Assembly (NCBI RefSeq): GCF_021228125.1
Contig: NZ_JAJQQS010000014.1
Location: 62,001-126,000, forward strand
Direction of reading: 5' to 3'
Length of the DNA: 64,000 bases
Source: Streptomyces albireticuli
GTDB taxonomy: Bacteria; Actinomycetota; Actinomycetes; Streptomycetales; Streptomycetaceae
Shown: in pieces, positions 46,149 through 54,707 of the stretch
Layout: every line of letters starts with the position of its first letter
How positions within the stretch are numbered: the first letter of the stretch is position 1
Position numbers and translations under genes: made by a program
The notes under the pieces: model-generated
Databases searched by the model: none
Told to the model about the DNA's origin: nothing
Seen by the model: only the letters and a program-made list of their open reading frames with translations

Positions 46149-47642
46149 TCAGGACAGGCCCAGCCGCCCCAGATAGTCCATGAGCCCGCCGGGCCGGTCG
46201 CCCGCCCACCCCACGTACCCGTCCGGGCGCACCAGGAACAGCCCCCGCGCCGCGTACGCGCGGCACACGTCGCCGGACTCCGCCGGCACCCGGTGCGTCA
46301 CCACCAGGGACGACGCGACGAGCGGCAGTTCCACCTGGCCGAACGCCAGCAGCGTGAAGTGGGGGCCGCGGAAGAGGTCGAACAGCCGGCCGTCGCCGCA
46401 GGGGCCGTCGGGGGCGCGGTCGCCCGCCCGCAGGGCGTCCTCGGGCAGGCCCTGGCGGGTCTCGGCGGCGAGCGGTCCGCCGCGGTAGCCCACGGCCAGC
46501 TGGCGGGTGACGGTGCCGCGCCGCCGGGCCGGGATGCGGTCCGTGAGCCGGGCGGAGCGGTGCAGCCGTGTGCTGACGGCGAGGGCCTCGGCCGCGACCG
46601 GCCGCCGCTCGTGCTCGTACGTGTCGAGGAGGGCGGGGTCCGCGCCGTGCCGCAGGACGAGGCCGAGCTTCCAGCCGAGGTTGTACGCGTCCTGCACACC
46701 GGTGTTGAGGCCCTGGCCGCCCACCGGCGAGTGGACGTGCGCGGCGTCGCCCGCGAGGAAGACGCGGCCGGACCGGTAGGAGTCGGCGAGCGCGGCCTCG
46801 ACACGGAAGTGCGAGGCCCACAGGACCTCGCGGACGTCGTGCGCGGCCAGGTGCGTCCGCTCGGCGATCAGGCGGCGCACGCCCGCCTCGGAGATGTCGG
46901 GGCGGGCGTCCTCGTCGTCGAAGTGGGCCTGGAGCTGGAAGGAGTCGGTGCAGGCGAGCGGGCACAGGGCGAGGCCGCCGCCCTTCGGCTCGGGCCAGAC
47001 GTGCCAGCGGTCGCGGCCGAGGCCGTCGACCCGGACGTCGGCGACGATCGCGGGGCGGGCGTCGACCGTCTCGCCGGTCCGGCCGATGCCGAGGGCGGCG
47101 CGCACGGTGCTGCGGCCGCCGTCCGCGCCGACCACGTAGGCGGCGCGCCCGATCCACTCCCTGCCGTCCGGGCCGTGCGCGAGCCGGACCTCCACGCAGC
47201 CGTCCCGCCGGGTCAGCCCGGTCAGGGTGACCCCGAAGGCCACGTCCCCGCCGAGCTGCCGCAGCCGGGTGTGCAGGATCTCCTGCGTGCGCCACTGGGG
47301 CACGGCCCACACCTCGGGGTAGGGCACGTCCGGCGTGGGGGCGTAGCGCTGGAACATGTCCCAGTCGCCGCGCGGCTCGCCGTTCTCCCAGCGCCGCATG
47401 GTGGGGTGGGGGCCGCCGACGGCCCGGACGGTCTCGATGACGCCGAGGTCGTCGAACACCTCCTGGGTGCGCGGCTGGATGCCCTTGCCGCGCGAACCGG
47501 GGAAGAGCCTGCCGCCCTGCTCGACGAGCAGGGCGCGCACGCCGCGCCGGGCCAGGTCGCAGGCGAGGGTCAGGCCGGTCGGGCCCGCCCCGGCCACGAT
47601 CACCTCGAAGCCGCTGCCGTCCGTTTCGTAGCCGACGTCCAT
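46149..47642 (-). CDS. FAD-dependent aromatic monooxygenase (PheA/TfdB type)
   Basis: A 497-residue class A flavin monooxygenase with the FAD Rossmann motif VIVAGAGPTGLTLACDLARR at the N-terminus, the DG motif VVGADGGRSTVR and the GD motif FLAGDAAHVHSPVGGQGLN. The C-terminal thioredoxin-like domain is present. This group hydroxylates phenols, polyketides or rifamycin-type antibiotics using NAD(P)H. The ATG at 47642 is preferred over TTG at 47672. It is 16 kb from the Dpg/siderophore locus, so a link to it cannot be claimed. Confidence 0.92.
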   Translation of the reverse strand: MDVGYETDGSGFEVIVAGAGPTGLTLACDLARRGVRALLVEQGGRLFPGSRGKGIQPRTQEVFDDLGVIETVRAVGGPHPTMRRWENGEPRGDWDMFQRYAPTPDVPYPEVWAVPQWRTQEILHTRLRQLGGDVAFGVTLTGLTRRDGCVEVRLAHGPDGREWIGRAAYVVGADGGRSTVRAALGIGRTGETVDARPAIVADVRVDGLGRDRWHVWPEPKGGGLALCPLACTDSFQLQAHFDDEDARPDISEAGVRRLIAERTHLAAHDVREVLWASHFRVEAALADSYRSGRVFLAGDAAHVHSPVGGQGLNTGVQDAYNLGWKLGLVLRHGADPALLDTYEHERRPVAAEALAVSTRLHRSARLTDRIPARRRGTVTRQLAVGYRGGPLAAETRQGLPEDALRAGDRAPDGPCGDGRLFDLFRGPHFTLLAFGQVELPLVASSLVVTHRVPAESGDVCRAYAARGLFLVRPDGYVGWAGDRPGGLMDYLGRLGLS

Positions 47643-47950
47643 GTCCAGGCCCCCGCCCTGTTCGCCGTGCAACCCGAGATTTCCGGTTGGGCGGAGTATG
47701 CCGCACCCGTACGTCGCGTATCAGCTCATCACTCGTAACCCACCCGATGGGGGACACGGGATCCCTGGGGACGCCCGCGGACCAGCCGCTCGGGCGGGCC
47801 GGCCCCGGCCGGCGCCCGCTGCCGGAATCATCCGTTCCATGAGTTCGCCAAGGCCCAGCGTGCCGGATTGCCGAGGCGCCGCGGGACGCTGACCATAGGG
47901 GCGCGGGTGACGCTGCGTCAGCAGGATGCGCACGCCCGCTGGGAGAGCTG
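47643..47950. other. Non-coding gap between monooxygenase and P-loop gene
   Basis: A 308-bp divergent gap. Short open frames cross it, but none has convincing start signals or codon bias. It should contain the promoters of both neighbours; I saw no recognisable operator. Confidence 0.4.
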
Positions 47951-48982
47951 ATGAGGGATCTGTCCACGGCGAAGTGGAGCCATGTCACCCGGGGCGTCAC
48001 CGCGCCGGGCCGGTGCCGGCTCGGCGGGCTCGCCGCACCGCCCCGGCCGGGTGACCTGGTGGTGGCGGGCGTGAACCGGGTGGGTGGCGGCGGCCGGCTG
48101 GAGGACGCGTACGGCAGACCGGTCCGGCTGCGCGTCGGCGATCTGGTCGTGGGCGCCTGCGGCAACCGCTACGCGACGGATTCGTACGAGGGCTACCACC
48201 GCCCGGGCCCCCAGGCGCACCTGCTGACCTCCGGGGGCGTGATCGGCACCGCCGTCTCCTGGCACACCGGCTGCACGGCGCCGACGGAGCTGACGATCCT
48301 GGGCGCGCTGACCGGCGCGGACGACCGGCCGCTGTCCCTCGACCGGTTCGCCCGTCCCGCGCCTCCGCCGCCCGCCGTTCCGCCGCGCGCCCTGGCGGTC
48401 GTCGGATCCTCGATGAACGCCGGCAAGACCACCACCGCGGCCGGCCTGCTGACCGGCTGGGCCCGCGCGGGGCTGGTGCCCGGTGCCGCGAAGGTCACCG
48501 GGACCGGCAGCGGCAAGGACCGCTGGGCGTACCTGGACGCGGGGGCCCGGCACGTGACCGACTTCCTGGACTTCGGGATGCCGTCGACCTTCGGCTATCC
48601 CGTGGAACGGCTTCTCACGGCGATGACGGCGATGCGGGACGCGCTGGTCCACGACGGCGCCGACGCGGTCGTCCTGGAGCTCGCGGACGGGCTGCTCCAG
48701 GAGGAGACCCGCAGGCTCACGGCCGCGCTGCCGGAGGTCTGCGACGGCGTCGTGCTCGCCGTGGGCGACGCGCTGGCCGCGCGCGCGGGCGTCGACCTGC
48801 TGTCGGCGCGCGGGGTACGGGTGCTGGCCGTGAGCGGGCTGGTGACGGCCGGTCCGCTCGCGGCGCGGGAGGCCGCCGCGGCCACCGGGCTGCCGGTGCT
48901 GTCGCCCGCCCGGCTGGCCGACGGGGCCGCGGTGGACCTCCTCGCCGGCCCCCTGGCCACGGCCGCGGCGGGCGGCAGGTGA
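47951..48982 (+). CDS. P-loop NTPase, DUF1611/MobB-like
   Basis: A 343-residue protein with an N-terminal beta-rich domain (residues ~1-140) and a P-loop domain whose Walker A is VVGSSMNAGKTTTAAGLL (~148-165), followed by KVTGTGSGKD and the Walker B-like segment ADAVVLELADGLLQ. This resembles the DUF1611/dethiobiotin-synthetase-like GTP/ATPase fold. GGGAG precedes the ATG. The stop overlaps the GTG of the next gene (GTGA), so it is co-translated with the HExxH protein. Function is unknown. Confidence 0.8.
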   Translation: MRDLSTAKWSHVTRGVTAPGRCRLGGLAAPPRPGDLVVAGVNRVGGGGRLEDAYGRPVRLRVGDLVVGACGNRYATDSYEGYHRPGPQAHLLTSGGVIGTAVSWHTGCTAPTELTILGALTGADDRPLSLDRFARPAPPPPAVPPRALAVVGSSMNAGKTTTAAGLLTGWARAGLVPGAAKVTGTGSGKDRWAYLDAGARHVTDFLDFGMPSTFGYPVERLLTAMTAMRDALVHDGADAVVLELADGLLQEETRRLTAALPEVCDGVVLAVGDALAARAGVDLLSARGVRVLAVSGLVTAGPLAAREAAAATGLPVLSPARLADGAAVDLLAGPLATAAAGGR

Positions 48983-50115
48983 TCCGGGTCGGGGCCTACC
49001 ACGAGGACGGCACGCCCGGCCCGGGCACCCTGGCCGAGGTGGAGCTGGACGCGGAGGTGACCGGGCCCGCCGAGCTGTGGTCGCCGGAGGTGACCGTGCG
49101 CGACGAGCGCGGCGGCACGTTCTTCGACGACTCCGGCGGTACGGACCTGGCCGCCGAACCGGCGGCGGGCGGGGGCCCGCTGGCGGAGGCAGGGGCCGAG
49201 CGGCGGGCGCGCGCCTTCGGCGTCGGCAACACCGCCTACCGGGCGCAGCGGCTGCTGCGGTCGGCCGCGCGGCTGCTGGGCCGGCCGCTGCCGCACCTGA
49301 CCGTACGGATCGGCGCGCACGACACGCCCGTCCGCTGGGGCGGCGGGCACTACCGGCTGCCCGGTGAGACGGAACCGGCCGAGCCGTACCGGATCTCGTG
49401 GGCGGGCGAGGTCCACCTCGGCGGTGGCGACAGCTATCTTCCGGGGCCGTCGGGCGGTTCGTACTTCCACGCGCCGGCGCATGACGCCGCGGTCGTCTGC
49501 CATGAGGTGGGGCACCACATCTGCCGTCACACCGCCGACTTCAAGGTCAACAGGCTGCGGCCGCCGGACGGGCAGCACAGCGGGAAGAACGCGCTGGACG
49601 AGGGCACCGCGGACTTCCTGACAGCGACGCAGCTGGGCACCCCGGACATCCACGGCTGGCACCGCGGGCACGTACCGCCGTGGGACCAGCGCCGGCGCGG
49701 CCTCGACCGGTGCTGGACCATGGCCCATCTGCGGCCCGGGCGAGGCGGGCAGGCGCACGCCAACGGCACCGTCTGGGCGTCGGCCCTGTGGTCGGCGCAC
49801 CGGGCCGTGCTGGAGGGCGGCGGCGAGAGCGACCGGTTCGTCGGCATGCTGCTGCGCGGGCTGGTGCGCCTCGGCTCGGGTATGGGAGCGGAGGCGGCCG
49901 GGCAGGTCACGGCCGCCGCGCTGGCCGCCGAGCGGAAGCGGCGCAACCAGTTCTCGTCGCTGCTGCGGGAGATGACCGAGGCGGACCCCGCGCTCGCCCC
50001 GGTGGTACTGGCGGCCATGGCGCGGCACGGTATCCATCCGGAAGGGAGCAACCGGGCGCTGCGGGAACGGGCCGTGGCCGCCGCCCTGCCCGAGGTCGCG
50101 CCGCTGCCCGGATGA
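48979..50115 (+). CDS. HExxH zinc-metallopeptidase-like protein
   Basis: A 378-residue protein with an N-terminal beta domain and a gluzincin-type zinc site: HEVGHHICRH (~residues 175-184), then the downstream Glu in ALDEGTADFLTATQLG and a helical C-terminal half. There is no signal peptide, so it would act in the cytoplasm. It is coupled to the P-loop gene by a GTGA overlap. The pair lies just before a P450 and a lanthipeptide locus, so a maturation role (leader removal) is possible but speculative; a stand-alone peptide-modification pair is an alternative. Confidence 0.75.
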   Translation: MIRVGAYHEDGTPGPGTLAEVELDAEVTGPAELWSPEVTVRDERGGTFFDDSGGTDLAAEPAAGGGPLAEAGAERRARAFGVGNTAYRAQRLLRSAARLLGRPLPHLTVRIGAHDTPVRWGGGHYRLPGETEPAEPYRISWAGEVHLGGGDSYLPGPSGGSYFHAPAHDAAVVCHEVGHHICRHTADFKVNRLRPPDGQHSGKNALDEGTADFLTATQLGTPDIHGWHRGHVPPWDQRRRGLDRCWTMAHLRPGRGGQAHANGTVWASALWSAHRAVLEGGGESDRFVGMLLRGLVRLGSGMGAEAAGQVTAAALAAERKRRNQFSSLLREMTEADPALAPVVLAAMARHGIHPEGSNRALRERAVAAALPEVAPLPG

Positions 50116-50369
50116 GCGGAGGGCTCCGCGATCGGGGGCGCCCGTCTCGCGGATCCGCGAGACGGGCGCGGCCGTCGCCCTCTCGAAGTGCGACCCGAAC
50201 AGGTGTGGTCGCCGGTGACGGGGTGAACGAGGCGGGTGTGACAAGGCCGTCGGCACCCTCCCGACAGACCTCCGGTAGCGATGTGTAACCACTCGGACAC
50301 CCTGGGTAGGCTTGCGGGGCGCCGCGCCGCTGACGACCCGCCCTGCTCACTCGTTCGAGGAGGATCGCT

Positions 50370-51593
50370 GTGTCACCCGACCGGATCGTCGCACCACCGC
50401 CCGAGATCTTCACCCCGGCCTTCTTCCAGGACGCCCACCCCGTGCTCGACGCGCTGCGCGCCCAGGCGCCGGCCACTCTGGTCACGGGCGTGAGCGGCAG
50501 CCGCCTGTGGCTCGTCCCGCGCTACGAGGCGGCCCGTACGCTGCTGGCCTCACCCCATGTCCGCAAGGACGAGTGGAAGCGGCCCGACCGCCGCGAGCGA
50601 CATACCGGGCGCTCGGAACGGCGGCGCGAGACGAGCGCCCGGATCCGGGCCAACATGATCGGCGCGGACGCGCCGGATCCCCAGCGCCTGCGCCACAGCA
50701 CCCAGCAGGCGCTCAGCAGAGGCCCGGTGGAGGCGATGCGCCGGCGCGTCGAGGTCTTCGCGGACGACACGCTCGGCGCCCTCCGCGGCTCCGGGCCCGT
50801 GGAGTTCCGCGCGCGGATCGCCTATCCCTTCGCCATCGCCGTGATCGGCGAGCTGCTCGGCCTGCGCGACGACGAACAGGCGGCGTTCCCGGCCTGGTTC
50901 GAGCCCCTGATGTGCCGCCGGAGCTCGCCGGGCGACCAGAAGTCCTCCCAGTTCATCGCCGACTTCGGCGAACGGCTGGTGGAGCGGGGCCGCGCCCAGC
51001 CGGTCCGGGGCCTGCTGTCCACGCTGGGGTCGCGGCGCGCGGGCCGGCGGGCACTGAGCCGCCACGAGCTCGCCTCGGCCGCGTTCCTCCTGCTCATCGC
51101 GGGCGTGGAGACGGCCAACGCCCTCACCAACGGTGTGTACGCCCTCCTGCGCCACCCCGATCAGTACGACGCGCTGCTCGCGGACCGCGGCCTGCTGCGG
51201 GGCGCGGTCGAGGAATGCCTGCGCTACGAGGGCCCGTTCCGGGCGGTCGGCCCGCGCCACACCGCCGAACCGGTGGATCTGGGCGAGGGCGTCACCATCC
51301 CGGCCGGGGAGTTCCTGCTGATCTCCGTGGGCGCGGCCAACCGCGACCCGCGCCGCTTCCCCGACCCGCACCGCTTCGACATCACCCGCACCGACCACCA
51401 GCACCTGGCCATGGGCCACGGCACGCACCGCTGCATCGGATCGCTGCTCGCGTACGCGCAGATGGAGGTCCTCTTCGGGCGGATGCTGGACCGCTTCCCC
51501 AGGATGCGGCTGGCGGTGCCGGCGGAGAAGGTGCGGCGGCAGCAGAGCATGACGATGAACTGGCTGGAGGACCTGCCCGTTCTGCTGCGCTGA
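50370..51593 (+). CDS. Cytochrome P450 beside lanthipeptide genes
   Basis: A 407-residue P450. The I-helix is IAGVETAN (AGxET), the ExxR is EECLRYEGP, and the heme loop is MGHGTHRCIG with Cys355; the usual first Phe of the loop is Met. GAGGAGG lies before the GTG at 50370. It converges on lanA with a shared terminator between. Tailoring of the lanthipeptide is possible, since P450s do modify RiPPs, but being transcribed from the opposite strand makes the link uncertain. Confidence 0.92.
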   Translation: MSPDRIVAPPPEIFTPAFFQDAHPVLDALRAQAPATLVTGVSGSRLWLVPRYEAARTLLASPHVRKDEWKRPDRRERHTGRSERRRETSARIRANMIGADAPDPQRLRHSTQQALSRGPVEAMRRRVEVFADDTLGALRGSGPVEFRARIAYPFAIAVIGELLGLRDDEQAAFPAWFEPLMCRRSSPGDQKSSQFIADFGERLVERGRAQPVRGLLSTLGSRRAGRRALSRHELASAAFLLLIAGVETANALTNGVYALLRHPDQYDALLADRGLLRGAVEECLRYEGPFRAVGPRHTAEPVDLGEGVTIPAGEFLLISVGAANRDPRRFPDPHRFDITRTDHQHLAMGHGTHRCIGSLLAYAQMEVLFGRMLDRFPRMRLAVPAEKVRRQQSMTMNWLEDLPVLLR

Positions 51594-51651
51594 GGAAACG
51601 GTGCTCCCGGCCGGGAACGCACCGCCCGGGACAGCGGCGGCGCCCGGTCAC

Positions 51652-51689
51652 GGTTCCGTACGGCCCGGTCGCCGCGGCCGTACGGAACC
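51652..51689. terminator. Bidirectional terminator between P450 and lanA
   Basis: A perfect 14-bp inverted repeat, GGTTCCGTACGGCC at 51652-51665 and its complement at 51676-51689, with a 10-nt loop, sits between the converging P450 and lanA stops. Confidence 0.8.
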
Positions 51690-51715
51690 CTTCGGACGCC
51701 GTCAGGGCGACGGCG

Positions 51716-51850
51716 TCACGAGTCCTGGCACCGCGGTCCGACGTCCGTGCACTGACCGCTCGTCCAGTCGGTGTCACAGCACATCACCGGTTCGAGCGTC
51801 CGTTCGTCCGTCTCCGGCAGCTCTTGCAGCTCCAGAACCTCGCTCTCCAT
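51716..51850 (-). CDS. lanA: Class III/IV lanthipeptide precursor
   Basis: A 44-residue peptide encoded on the reverse strand, ATG at 51850, stop at 51716. AAAGGAGGTG lies 6 nt upstream of the ATG, one of the best ribosome-binding sites in the window. Third-base G/C bias is high in this frame and poor in the overlapping lanL frame. The leader (residues 1-23) contains EVLELQELPETDE, matching the LxLQ-type recognition helix of class III/IV leaders. The core has Cys24, Cys25, Cys34 and Cys41 with Thr27, Thr30, Ser31, Thr35 and Ser44 as dehydration sites (CCDTDWTSGQC, then VGPRC). Its start lies inside the 3' end of lanL, so the two are expressed together. Confidence 0.85.
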   Translation of the reverse strand: MESEVLELQELPETDERTLEPVMCCDTDWTSGQCTDVGPRCQDS

Positions 51851-54707
51851 GGTCCTCACCTCCTTTCAGGGTGTCGGAAGTACGCCCGGCGGTGTCGAGC
51901 AGCCAGGGCCGGTCGCCGCCGTGGGCGAGACGCAGGAGGAAGTCCAGGGCGCCCGCGAGACCCACGTGGTAACTCGCGTGGACCTCGCGGAGGGTCTCGT
52001 CCGGGACCAGCAGCCGGCCGTCGCGCCGGGCCGCCCGCAGATACAGGCAGTCGGCGGCCTCGGCCGCCCACGCGCGATAGCGCTCCCGGCCCGTCGCGCC
52101 GGCCAGGTCGAGCAGCAGGTGGGCGTTGCCCGCGACGCCGTGGCAGGTGCCGGGGCCGAGCCGCCAGCGGTCCCGGTGGACGGCGACGGCGGCGCGTTCG
52201 GCGTACTCGCGGAAGGCCGGCTCACCGGTCGCCCGCCACAGCCGGACCAGGAGCGTGCCGATGCCGGACGCGCCGTGGCACCAGAAGTCGAGACCCATGC
52301 GCTCGGTCCGGCCCGGCCCCTTGGGCCAGCGCGCCGCGTCCCCCTCCCGCTCGGCCACGGCGCACAGGGCGTGACCGCCGGCCGCCGCGATGTCGACGAG
52401 CTCGGGCCGTCCGAGGTCGCGGCCCACGGCGAGCAGGAAAGCGGCGTGACCGGCGACGCCGTGCCCGAAGCCGTACGAGGCGGAGCCCGCGAGTTCGGCG
52501 CGGTGGCCGGGGCCCAGCGGCCAGTCCACGCCGCGGACGCCGGGCCGGGTGGTGAGGCGCAGCACCCGGTCGGCGCACTCCGACGCGCGGTCGGCGAAGC
52601 GCGGGTCGCCCGTGGTGCGCCACAGGCGGAGCTGGGCGAGACCGGCCCCGGCCAGGCCGTGGCAGATGTCGGGGTCGTGCCAGTCGAGGGGGATCCGCAG
52701 GGCGTACTCCCGGGCGCGCCCGGCCAGCGCGCGGTCGCCGAGCGTGCGGGCGGCGTCGTGGAGCGCCCAAACGGCCCCGGAGCGCCCGAAGTAGAGGCCG
52801 GGCAGGATCCGGCTGGGCAGGGTGAGCCGCTCGTCCAGCCAGTGGGCGGCGGTCCGCAGCACGGGCGCCGCCTCGGGGTACGCGCCGGAGCGTACCGCCC
52901 GGTCGAGCACGGCCAGCACGCCGGCCGCGCCCAGTTGGACGTTGCAGGGGTCGCCGTACGGGAGGGAGCGGGGCGGCGGCCACAGGTATTCGCCGGAGGG
53001 GGTGAGGGTCGCGGCGAGGTGGGCGAGGCCGTCGTGGAGCAGACGGTGGAGCCGGTGGGAGGGGAAGGCGGGACCGCGGAGGGTGTCGTGGGCGGGTGGC
53101 GCCTCCGCGCCTGCGTCGCCTGCGTCCGGTTCGGCCCTCAGGAAAGCCGCCGCCTTCTCCAGTGGCCAGCGGGCCGGGCCGTCCGCGGTGAGGCCGAGGA
53201 CGAGGGGCGCGAGCGTGCGCAGGGCGGGACAGTCCCGCGCGGCGGCCTCGACGAGCGCGGCGAGCCGTTCGCCGGCCGGGCGGCCGGGGGGCGTGTCCGC
53301 GGCGAGGACCGGATTGATGCCGGAGGTGGCGTGGAGAAGGGTGGCTCCGAGGCTGAAGCAGTCGGCTTCGGGGCCGGGCGCGGGAGGTGGGGGACCGCTG
53401 TCGCGGCCGGGGGCGCGGAGGGGTGGTTCGGGCACGGGTGGGACGCCGGGGCGGCCGGCCGCCGTGATGCCGCCGAGGTCCTCGGACACGGCCGCACCGG
53501 CCGGATGCTCCGGCGCCGCACCGGCGTCGGGATCCCCGGGCACGACGACGTCCTGAAGGTGTTCCGGCGCCGTGAAGCCCGGGGTGCCCGCCGCGTGTGC
53601 CCGTCCGCCGAAGCGGACCGCGCATTCCAGGTCGACGAGTACGGGCGCGTCGTCGGGGGTCATCATCACGTTGCCCGGTTTGAGGTCGCGCACCACGAAG
53701 CCCGCCGCGTGCACCTCGCCGAGGAGGCGGGCGAGGTCGCGGGCCAGCCGCCGGGCCACGGGCACCGGCAGCCGGCCGCCGTGGCGGGCCGCCCGCCCGG
53801 CGGCCCAGGCGTGCAGGGGCGCGCCGTCGATCAGCTCCTCCACCAGGAAGACGTGCCCGGCCGACTCGAACACCCCGTGGACGGCCGGGGTGACGCCGAG
53901 CGGCGCGAGCCGGGCCATGACGTCCGCCTCGTGGCGCAGCGCGTCCCGGGCGTCGCCGCCCCGGCCCGCGGCGATGTGCGGGCGCGCCTCCTTGAGCAGG
54001 ACGTCGGTGGCGGTCAGCCGGTCGTGCGCCCGGTAGACGCCGCCGCGGTTGGAGTGCCGTACCGCCTCGCGGACGAGGTAGCGGCCGGCGAGGAGCACGG
54101 GGTCGCCGCGGCGCCGGGAAGGGGACGGGCGTACGGGCGGGGGGAAGGGCGGGGGCGCCCAGGCGGGCGGCGAGAACCAGGGGTTGCGCTCGTCGGTGAC
54201 GTACGTCCCGTCCGGGGCTCTCAGCCGGCCCGCGTAGAAGCCCTCGTCGTCGAGTTCGCGCGGCCGGGCGAAGCAGCCGTAGCGGTAGTGGACGAGGCTG
54301 TCCGGCCGGTAGCGCCGGTCGGAGAGGATGGCGGGGCCGGTGAGGCCCAGGGTGGCGCGGTGGAGGGTGGCGGCGAGCGCGCGCAGGGTGTCGTCGTCAT
54401 CGGGGTAGGCGGTGAGGAACTTCCCCGACTGGGCGCGTGGGGCGCGTACGGAGGTGAGTTCGGCGAGGACCCGGGGTGAGACGGCGAACTTGAACGCGCA
54501 GGCGTGGGCCACGAGGACGGGGACGGCGCGCTCCAGCACGTGAGGGGCGGAGTCGGGCGTCGCGGAGAGGTGGAGCTTCCAGCCCTGCTGCCGGCGCTCG
54601 TGGTGCGGCGGGGTGACCGCGCACCAGGTGTCACCGACCCGGAGCGTCCATGGCGGCTCCTCACCCTCGATGCTCCGCTGAGCGATCGACCGATAACTCG
54701 TTGCCAC
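51774..54707 (-). CDS. lanL: Class III/IV lanthionine synthetase (LanKC/LanL type)
   Basis: A 977-residue three-domain enzyme: N-terminal phosphothreonine lyase (~1-200; GWKLHLSATPDSAP, DERNPWFSPPAW), a kinase (~210-490; RDLKPGNVMMTPDDAPVLVDLE, with DLE replacing DFG, and TPGFTAPEH) and a LanC-like cyclase (~560-950). Cyclase zinc ligands are kept: Cys810 (DFWCHG), Cys855 and His856 (GTCHGVAG), plus Cys682 (DICHGLAG). Class III enzymes lack these ligands; class IV LanL keep them, so class IV is favoured. It phosphorylates and eliminates Ser/Thr, then forms thioether rings. The GTG at 54707 has no good ribosome-binding site, so the start is uncertain. Its last 77 bp overlap lanA. Confidence 0.9.
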   Translation of the reverse strand: MATSYRSIAQRSIEGEEPPWTLRVGDTWCAVTPPHHERRQQGWKLHLSATPDSAPHVLERAVPVLVAHACAFKFAVSPRVLAELTSVRAPRAQSGKFLTAYPDDDDTLRALAATLHRATLGLTGPAILSDRRYRPDSLVHYRYGCFARPRELDDEGFYAGRLRAPDGTYVTDERNPWFSPPAWAPPPFPPPVRPSPSRRRGDPVLLAGRYLVREAVRHSNRGGVYRAHDRLTATDVLLKEARPHIAAGRGGDARDALRHEADVMARLAPLGVTPAVHGVFESAGHVFLVEELIDGAPLHAWAAGRAARHGGRLPVPVARRLARDLARLLGEVHAAGFVVRDLKPGNVMMTPDDAPVLVDLECAVRFGGRAHAAGTPGFTAPEHLQDVVVPGDPDAGAAPEHPAGAAVSEDLGGITAAGRPGVPPVPEPPLRAPGRDSGPPPPAPGPEADCFSLGATLLHATSGINPVLAADTPPGRPAGERLAALVEAAARDCPALRTLAPLVLGLTADGPARWPLEKAAAFLRAEPDAGDAGAEAPPAHDTLRGPAFPSHRLHRLLHDGLAHLAATLTPSGEYLWPPPRSLPYGDPCNVQLGAAGVLAVLDRAVRSGAYPEAAPVLRTAAHWLDERLTLPSRILPGLYFGRSGAVWALHDAARTLGDRALAGRAREYALRIPLDWHDPDICHGLAGAGLAQLRLWRTTGDPRFADRASECADRVLRLTTRPGVRGVDWPLGPGHRAELAGSASYGFGHGVAGHAAFLLAVGRDLGRPELVDIAAAGGHALCAVAEREGDAARWPKGPGRTERMGLDFWCHGASGIGTLLVRLWRATGEPAFREYAERAAVAVHRDRWRLGPGTCHGVAGNAHLLLDLAGATGRERYRAWAAEAADCLYLRAARRDGRLLVPDETLREVHASYHVGLAGALDFLLRLAHGGDRPWLLDTAGRTSDTLKGGEDHGERGSGAARAAGDGRTDARTGDVL

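Follow-up and report, generated by a model that had tools for sequence, protein, structure and literature searches.

The LanL enzymes of class IV lanthipeptide biosynthesis phosphorylate, eliminate and cyclise. Class IV has been described as the lanthipeptide class that has received least study, and few of its members have been identified (PMC10676316). The closest described system is that of venezuelin: in vitro, VenL phosphorylates, eliminates and cyclises VenA, and of the four rings proposed for the product three run Cys-first (Cys32-Dhb43, Cys34-Dhb39 and Cys45-Dha49) (PMC2843593). Genome mining in 2020 yielded 401 class IV precursors, and unannotated precursors are usual among mined lanthipeptide precursors (PMC7268733). 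In class III, a LELQL motif has been reported as critical for leader binding by the synthetase ThurKC (PMC10604976).

Here we analyse a class IV locus in a 64,000-nucleotide stretch of Streptomyces albireticuli DNA (the window). We conclude that a short ORF at the end of its lanL gene is very probably lanA, encoding the precursor of a distinct class IV lanthipeptide family, for which we infer the chemistry, export, leader removal and activity; on the best reading of its loci, the family is often organised as a lanL-lanA-lanC unit. A literature search with the precursor sequence motifs gave unrelated papers only, and literature searches on class IV or LanL systems with an additional or stand-alone LanC showed no title or abstract that reports such a unit. 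PMC7268733 may already list this family within its set of 401 class IV precursors.

Results

Table 1. Features of the lanL-lanA locus in the window
Feature	Coordinates	Strand	Basis
lanL, class IV lanthionine synthetase, 977 aa, GTG start position uncertain	51774..54707	(-)	NF038150, Pfam domains, zinc-ligand alignment
lanL 3' end / lanA leader overlap, 77 bp, other frame	51774..51850	(-)	ORF coordinates
lanA, 44-aa lanthipeptide precursor, stop included	51716..51850	(-)	translation, homologues, codon-position pattern
Ribosome-binding site AAAGGAGGTGA of lanA, within lanL	51856..51866	(-)	sequence
G+C-rich strong hairpin 3' of lanA	51652..51689	(-)	fold of 51640-51715 (-): -53 kcal/mol, z = -5.42

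By profile score and domain content, the larger gene of the pair encodes the class IV synthetase LanL: the protein scores 999.7 bits against NF038150 (cut-off 650) and 461.9 against the class III model, under the cut-off of 575; Pfam places RamC_N at residues 17-189, Pkinase at 222-386 and LANC_like at 617-934; and, in an alignment, its cyclase domain has the zinc-ligand Cys and Cys-His columns, together with His and Asp columns, in common with stand-alone LanC proteins.

The original prediction of a 44-residue reverse-strand peptide with a good ribosome-binding site, starting in the final 77 bp of lanL in another frame, agrees with the ORF coordinates (Table 1). The ORF has an ATG start and translates to MESEVLELQELPETDERTLEPVMCCDTDWTSGQCTDVGPRCQDS; the GGAGG of its ribosome-binding site lies 8 nt from the ATG, and many homologues are likewise preceded by purine-rich AGGAG-like stretches. 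The leader, at about residues 1-21/23, contains the predicted ELQELP as well as T14 and T18. The core is CCDTDWTSGQCTDVGPRCQDS, and counting in the translation returned the composition claimed for the last 21 residues, with four Cys (24, 25, 34 and 41) and five Ser/Thr (27, 30, 31, 35 and 44). The precursor has no match among Pfam models, and the NCBIfam search yielded, apart from the class III lanthipeptide model at E 8.4, no more than a lipoprotein model with E 0.0056 and 16.6 bits (cut-off 135). Beyond the hairpin behind lanA lies a convergent P450 gene, and the hairpin is a possible terminator between the two; a scan for T-run terminator patterns gave 0 sites, this hairpin not among them.

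Homologous precursors were sought in the genome contigs (genome_contigs) with one pattern, VL[EAR]LQELPE, so that only genes carrying it could be found. The 54 matches led to 22 loci confirmed as precursor homologues, in Streptomyces, Kitasatospora, Embleya, Nonomuraea and Solihabitans, and within the genus precursor matches occur in 6 of 392 genomes, the own genome counted. The frame, on whose conservation in related lanL loci the original prediction had depended, is kept, and lanL stands upstream at 21 of the 22 loci; at one locus (L029) the contig carries only the lanL tail, upstream of the precursor. The own genome (G000) has two LanLs above cut-off, each with a precursor at its 3' end, the second at C31:375521-375652 (locus L019). 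Pairwise differences across leader codons 2-21 at 24 loci fall as 663/729/2538 on codon positions 1/2/3, the loci being related and the counts not independent; the 60 nt upstream of the same precursors gave 3766/3600/3808, likewise descriptive counts from related loci. The window lanA and that of its nearest relative, S. eurocidicus, differ at 10 nucleotides, 8 of them in third codon positions. This conservation pattern marks lanA as a real conserved gene. At L045:5001, a MCCDTIFTTDRTDGC-type precursor has no LanL or LanC within 5 kb.

The overlap with the synthetase gene, noted in the original prediction, turned out to be variable: lanL and lanA overlap at 7 of the 17 measured loci. The overlap is incidental, because the lanL stop drifts from -53 to +138 bp around the first lanA start (measured at 17 of 24 loci). 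A regulatory role of the 77-bp overlap was rejected, since its length drifts between loci. At one locus (L029:11-442, Streptomyces sp. UNOC14_S4), on a contig that begins within lanL, lanL reads in frame into lanA with no stop, which is possibly a natural synthetase-substrate fusion.

The leader is nearly constant across the family (MExxVLELQELPETDExxLEP; consensus of the homologues, MExxVLELQELPETDE) and contains LELQ. The core varies by module (CCDTDHTSGQCTDPPRC, CCDTIFTTDRTDGCTEPPRC, CCDTGHHSYEWTDLC and CCDTAETSWDITDPPRC, with a divergent LHCQVSLTTSRCDTDCCTDTPRC) and is mostly of the MCCDT type. MCC occurs in 25 of the 27 precursors compared, and in 24 the first two Cys both precede all core Ser/Thr, the exceptions being the first copies at L021 and L032 and the precursor of L036. 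Cys and Ser/Thr counts are equal or nearly equal in many members; T27, T30, S31 and T35 recur within the window precursor's own subtype, while across the family a Ser at the C-terminus, like Ser44, is no general feature. Tandem precursors, some of them broken, number three at L021 and L032 and two at L031 and L037, the extra copies at L031, L032 and L037 lying between lanL and the matched precursor. In the tandem precursors L037:4832 and L037:5001, the CC pair provides the only Cys, with three Ser/Thr in each and a full-length lanL alongside. At L043:4992, a TGA replaces the codon for the second Cys of the pair, the remaining core is open and lanL has a frameshift; these defects may be decay or sequencing error. 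Given also a TAG in lanA and a lanL frameshift at L035, and a lanL frameshift at L030, these three loci (L030, L035 and L043) look decayed or badly assembled.

At 14 of the 22 loci, profile search found a stand-alone, zinc-type LanC just downstream of lanA and on the same strand. All ten downstream ORFs picked by position and size match PF05147, among them four with LanC-domain similarity (L027, L031, L033 and L038). The gene is truncated by the contig end at L032, follows an opposite-strand ORF behind lanA at L029, and is additionally present at L021 (genome G051) and at the Embleya plasmid locus L082; none was found in the available stretch of L030, L035, L036, L037, L040, L041, L044 and L045. 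The proteins align with the solved cyclases 8byk and NisC, and Asp144, His217, Cys288, Cys333 and His334 (L026 numbering) are kept in 12/12. Among 12 other flanking ORFs scanned by Pfam, no LanB was found and no exporter was recognised; hydrolase-type matches among flanking ORFs appeared at two individual loci (L019 and L037).

The 22 loci represent 20 genomes, of which 19 were examined for LanC, and clear members of the lanA-linked LanC clade are present in 14 of these 19. Four genomes (G401, G402, G405 and G408) gave only other LanCs among the 101 of 123-141 first-look candidates scored. A Nonomuraea LanC (G396, 409 bits) was considered as a clade member and left out as doubtful, the tree placing it beside LanB-linked LanCs. 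In the genus sample (n=392; best four LanC candidates per genome scored), six genomes have the precursor, eight a LanC at E <= 1e-50 and five both (Fisher p 4e-9, without kinship correction); G258 has the precursor without LanC, and in the LanC-only genomes (G039, G128 and G245) the LanC lies beside LanB. A quick tree unites the lanA-linked LanCs and a copy on contig C12 of the own genome in one group (SH-aLRT 88), which adjoins the class I LanCs of G039/G128/G245 and lies far from the LanL cyclase domains. Across 12 loci, the distances between LanLs correlate with those between LanCs (r 0.92; 0/10,000 permutations), as would also be expected from shared descent alone. Judged only by position, conservation and co-occurrence, the stand-alone LanC probably helps close rings in many relatives. 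An association between loss of the C-terminal Cys and loss of LanC is suggestive only: it is seen in both precursors of L037 and at L035, but the latter locus is decayed, and L041 and L044 keep a third Cys without a LanC of the lanA-linked clade.

In S. eurocidicus (L020/L026), lanL-lanA-lanC precedes genes for a FAD monooxygenase, a DUF1611-like protein, a protease-like protein and a P450. In the window, the block 46149-51593 (FAD monooxygenase, DUF1611-like, HExxH-containing and P450) is inverted relative to S. eurocidicus and lanC is missing at the junction; profile search found no LanC at the locus or elsewhere in the window beyond LanL. The P450 and FAD-monooxygenase genes match PF00067 and PF01494, respectively. 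The two other genes have no Pfam match: one we take to be DUF1611-like, and the other we label protease-like from an HExxH motif seen by eye. We considered these four flanking genes as tailoring enzymes and rejected them in that role because they are not kept at six other loci compared, where the DUF1611-like and protease-like genes have no match and the matches to the other two are distant: P450 at two loci (33-37%) and FAD at one (37%).

One LanC of the lanA-linked clade does occur in the own genome, on contig C12, and 19 kb of its surroundings revealed no LanL or precursor. It is probably not the relocated partner of the window locus, because it is 64% identical to the S. eurocidicus LanC, compared with 93% for LanA and 86% over 484 columns for LanL between the two loci; only this diverged copy could serve the window locus in place of the lost lanC. 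The reverse-strand lanL of the second locus of this genome (L019, G000:C31) has an in-frame TGA, at a Trp of the window LanL, between the kinase and cyclase domains, and a 424-aa cyclase ORF with a GTG start follows it; the gene may be a pseudogene or encode a LanL that is naturally split, or the TGA may be a sequencing error.

Discussion

Our analysis suggests the following course for the window precursor: the ribosome would start lanA at its own site within the lanL end; the VLELQEL stretch of the leader would dock on LanL; the kinase would phosphorylate core Ser/Thr and the lyase domain would take the phosphate off to give Dha/Dhb; and the zinc cyclase domain would add the Cys thiols to Dha/Dhb. 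From the four Cys and the four Ser/Thr of the subtype (T27, T30, S31 and T35), about four dehydrations (about -72 Da) and no free thiol would be predicted. No core Ser/Thr comes before either Cys of the CC pair, so both would be expected in Cys-first rings, as in venezuelin; a forward ring could form between T35 and C41. The original prediction considered the CC pair and the spacing of the core foreign to known class III/IV products. As regards the order this does not hold, since CC before Ser/Thr is compatible with class IV chemistry given the Cys-first rings of venezuelin; venezuelin does have another core sequence and another spacing, so that a new ring pattern is plausible.

The same features could be read otherwise. 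MCC is the most constant feature of the core and is rarely preceded by core Ser/Thr, as would suit a disulfide or metal site, with rings formed only at the C-terminal Cys; however, the class IV enzyme VenL makes Cys-first rings (PMC2843593), Cys and Ser/Thr are equal or almost equal in number in many members, and the two L037 precursors with CC as their only Cys still carry three Ser/Thr. We regard this alternative as quite improbable. That the frame itself arose by chance in a G+C-rich gene end is scarcely credible: the region does hold many spurious ORFs in the ORF list, but lanA is not one of them, because homologues occur at 22 loci and most of the differences between leaders affect the third base of a codon; sequence, start and position are kept across several genera, and a precursor is present again at the second LanL of the own genome.

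Decay of the window locus, whose LanL and LanA would give no finished product after the rearrangement that brought the P450 beside lanA and the loss of lanC, seems unlikely, though it has points in its favour: S. eurocidicus, with a LanA 93% identical, has the LanC that the window locus is without; the second LanL of the genome has a TGA for Trp; and at L035, where LanC is likewise missing, lanL is frameshifted and lanA contains a TAG. On the other hand, lanL and lanA of the window are intact, the differences from the S. eurocidicus lanA lie largely at third positions, and full-length lanL with open lanA occurs at L037, L041 and L044 without a LanC of the lanA-linked clade. Breakage is not tied to LanC loss, since L043 has a LanC yet a broken lanL; moreover, VenL alone dehydrates and cyclises VenA (PMC2843593).

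We retain lanA as the very probable precursor gene of a class IV pair, and for the relatives with a stand-alone LanC we tentatively put forward a hybrid class IV/class I system, a possibility that we rate slightly below even: LanL would dehydrate the CCDT-type core, and its cyclase domain and a recruited class-I-type LanC would split the rings, with the former forming Cys-first rings at the CCDT module and the latter those of the C-terminal xCTDxPRC module. The CC-only precursors of L037, in whose genome no LanC of the lanA-linked clade was found, would be a natural test case.

The family adds a coherent group of class IV precursors in which the leader is nearly fixed and the C-terminal core modules vary. 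Its most interesting part is the recurring lanL-lanA-lanC unit, in which a synthetase that has its own cyclase domain stands together with a second cyclase of the class I type; this makes the division of ring formation between two LanC domains testable, and the family supplies natural variants, with or without the second cyclase and with two, three or four Cys.

Known systems resemble different parts of this unit. The lyase-kinase half of the window LanL is related to solved class III synthetases, and the LELQ of the leader recalls the LELQL motif of the ThurKC system (PMC10604976), whereas the zinc-binding residues of the window LanL are, according to PMC7268733, ones that LanKC is without. 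The stand-alone LanC is of the class I (NisC) type by its PF05147 match, its alignment with 8byk and NisC and its fully kept catalytic residues, and the LanCs closest to its group in the tree are encoded next to LanB; unlike class I, it stands behind a class IV lanL-lanA pair with no LanB in the 12 other flanking ORFs scanned. With venezuelin, the window family shares a LanL with lyase, kinase and zinc cyclase, a small precursor directly behind lanL, LPETD in the leader, and Cys-first rings, described for venezuelin and proposed here. In contrast, the cores are unrelated, and alignment of the window LanL with those of four VenA-type loci gives 37-40% identity over 931-1002 positions. No stand-alone LanC was found at these four loci (15-16 kb each), and the window-family profile found no precursor there at E <= 0.01; a VenA query found nothing in the own genome. 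VenA-type precursors occur in 45 of the 392 genus genomes, a set that shares no member with the six that have a window-type precursor. By these comparisons, the window family is distinct from venezuelin.
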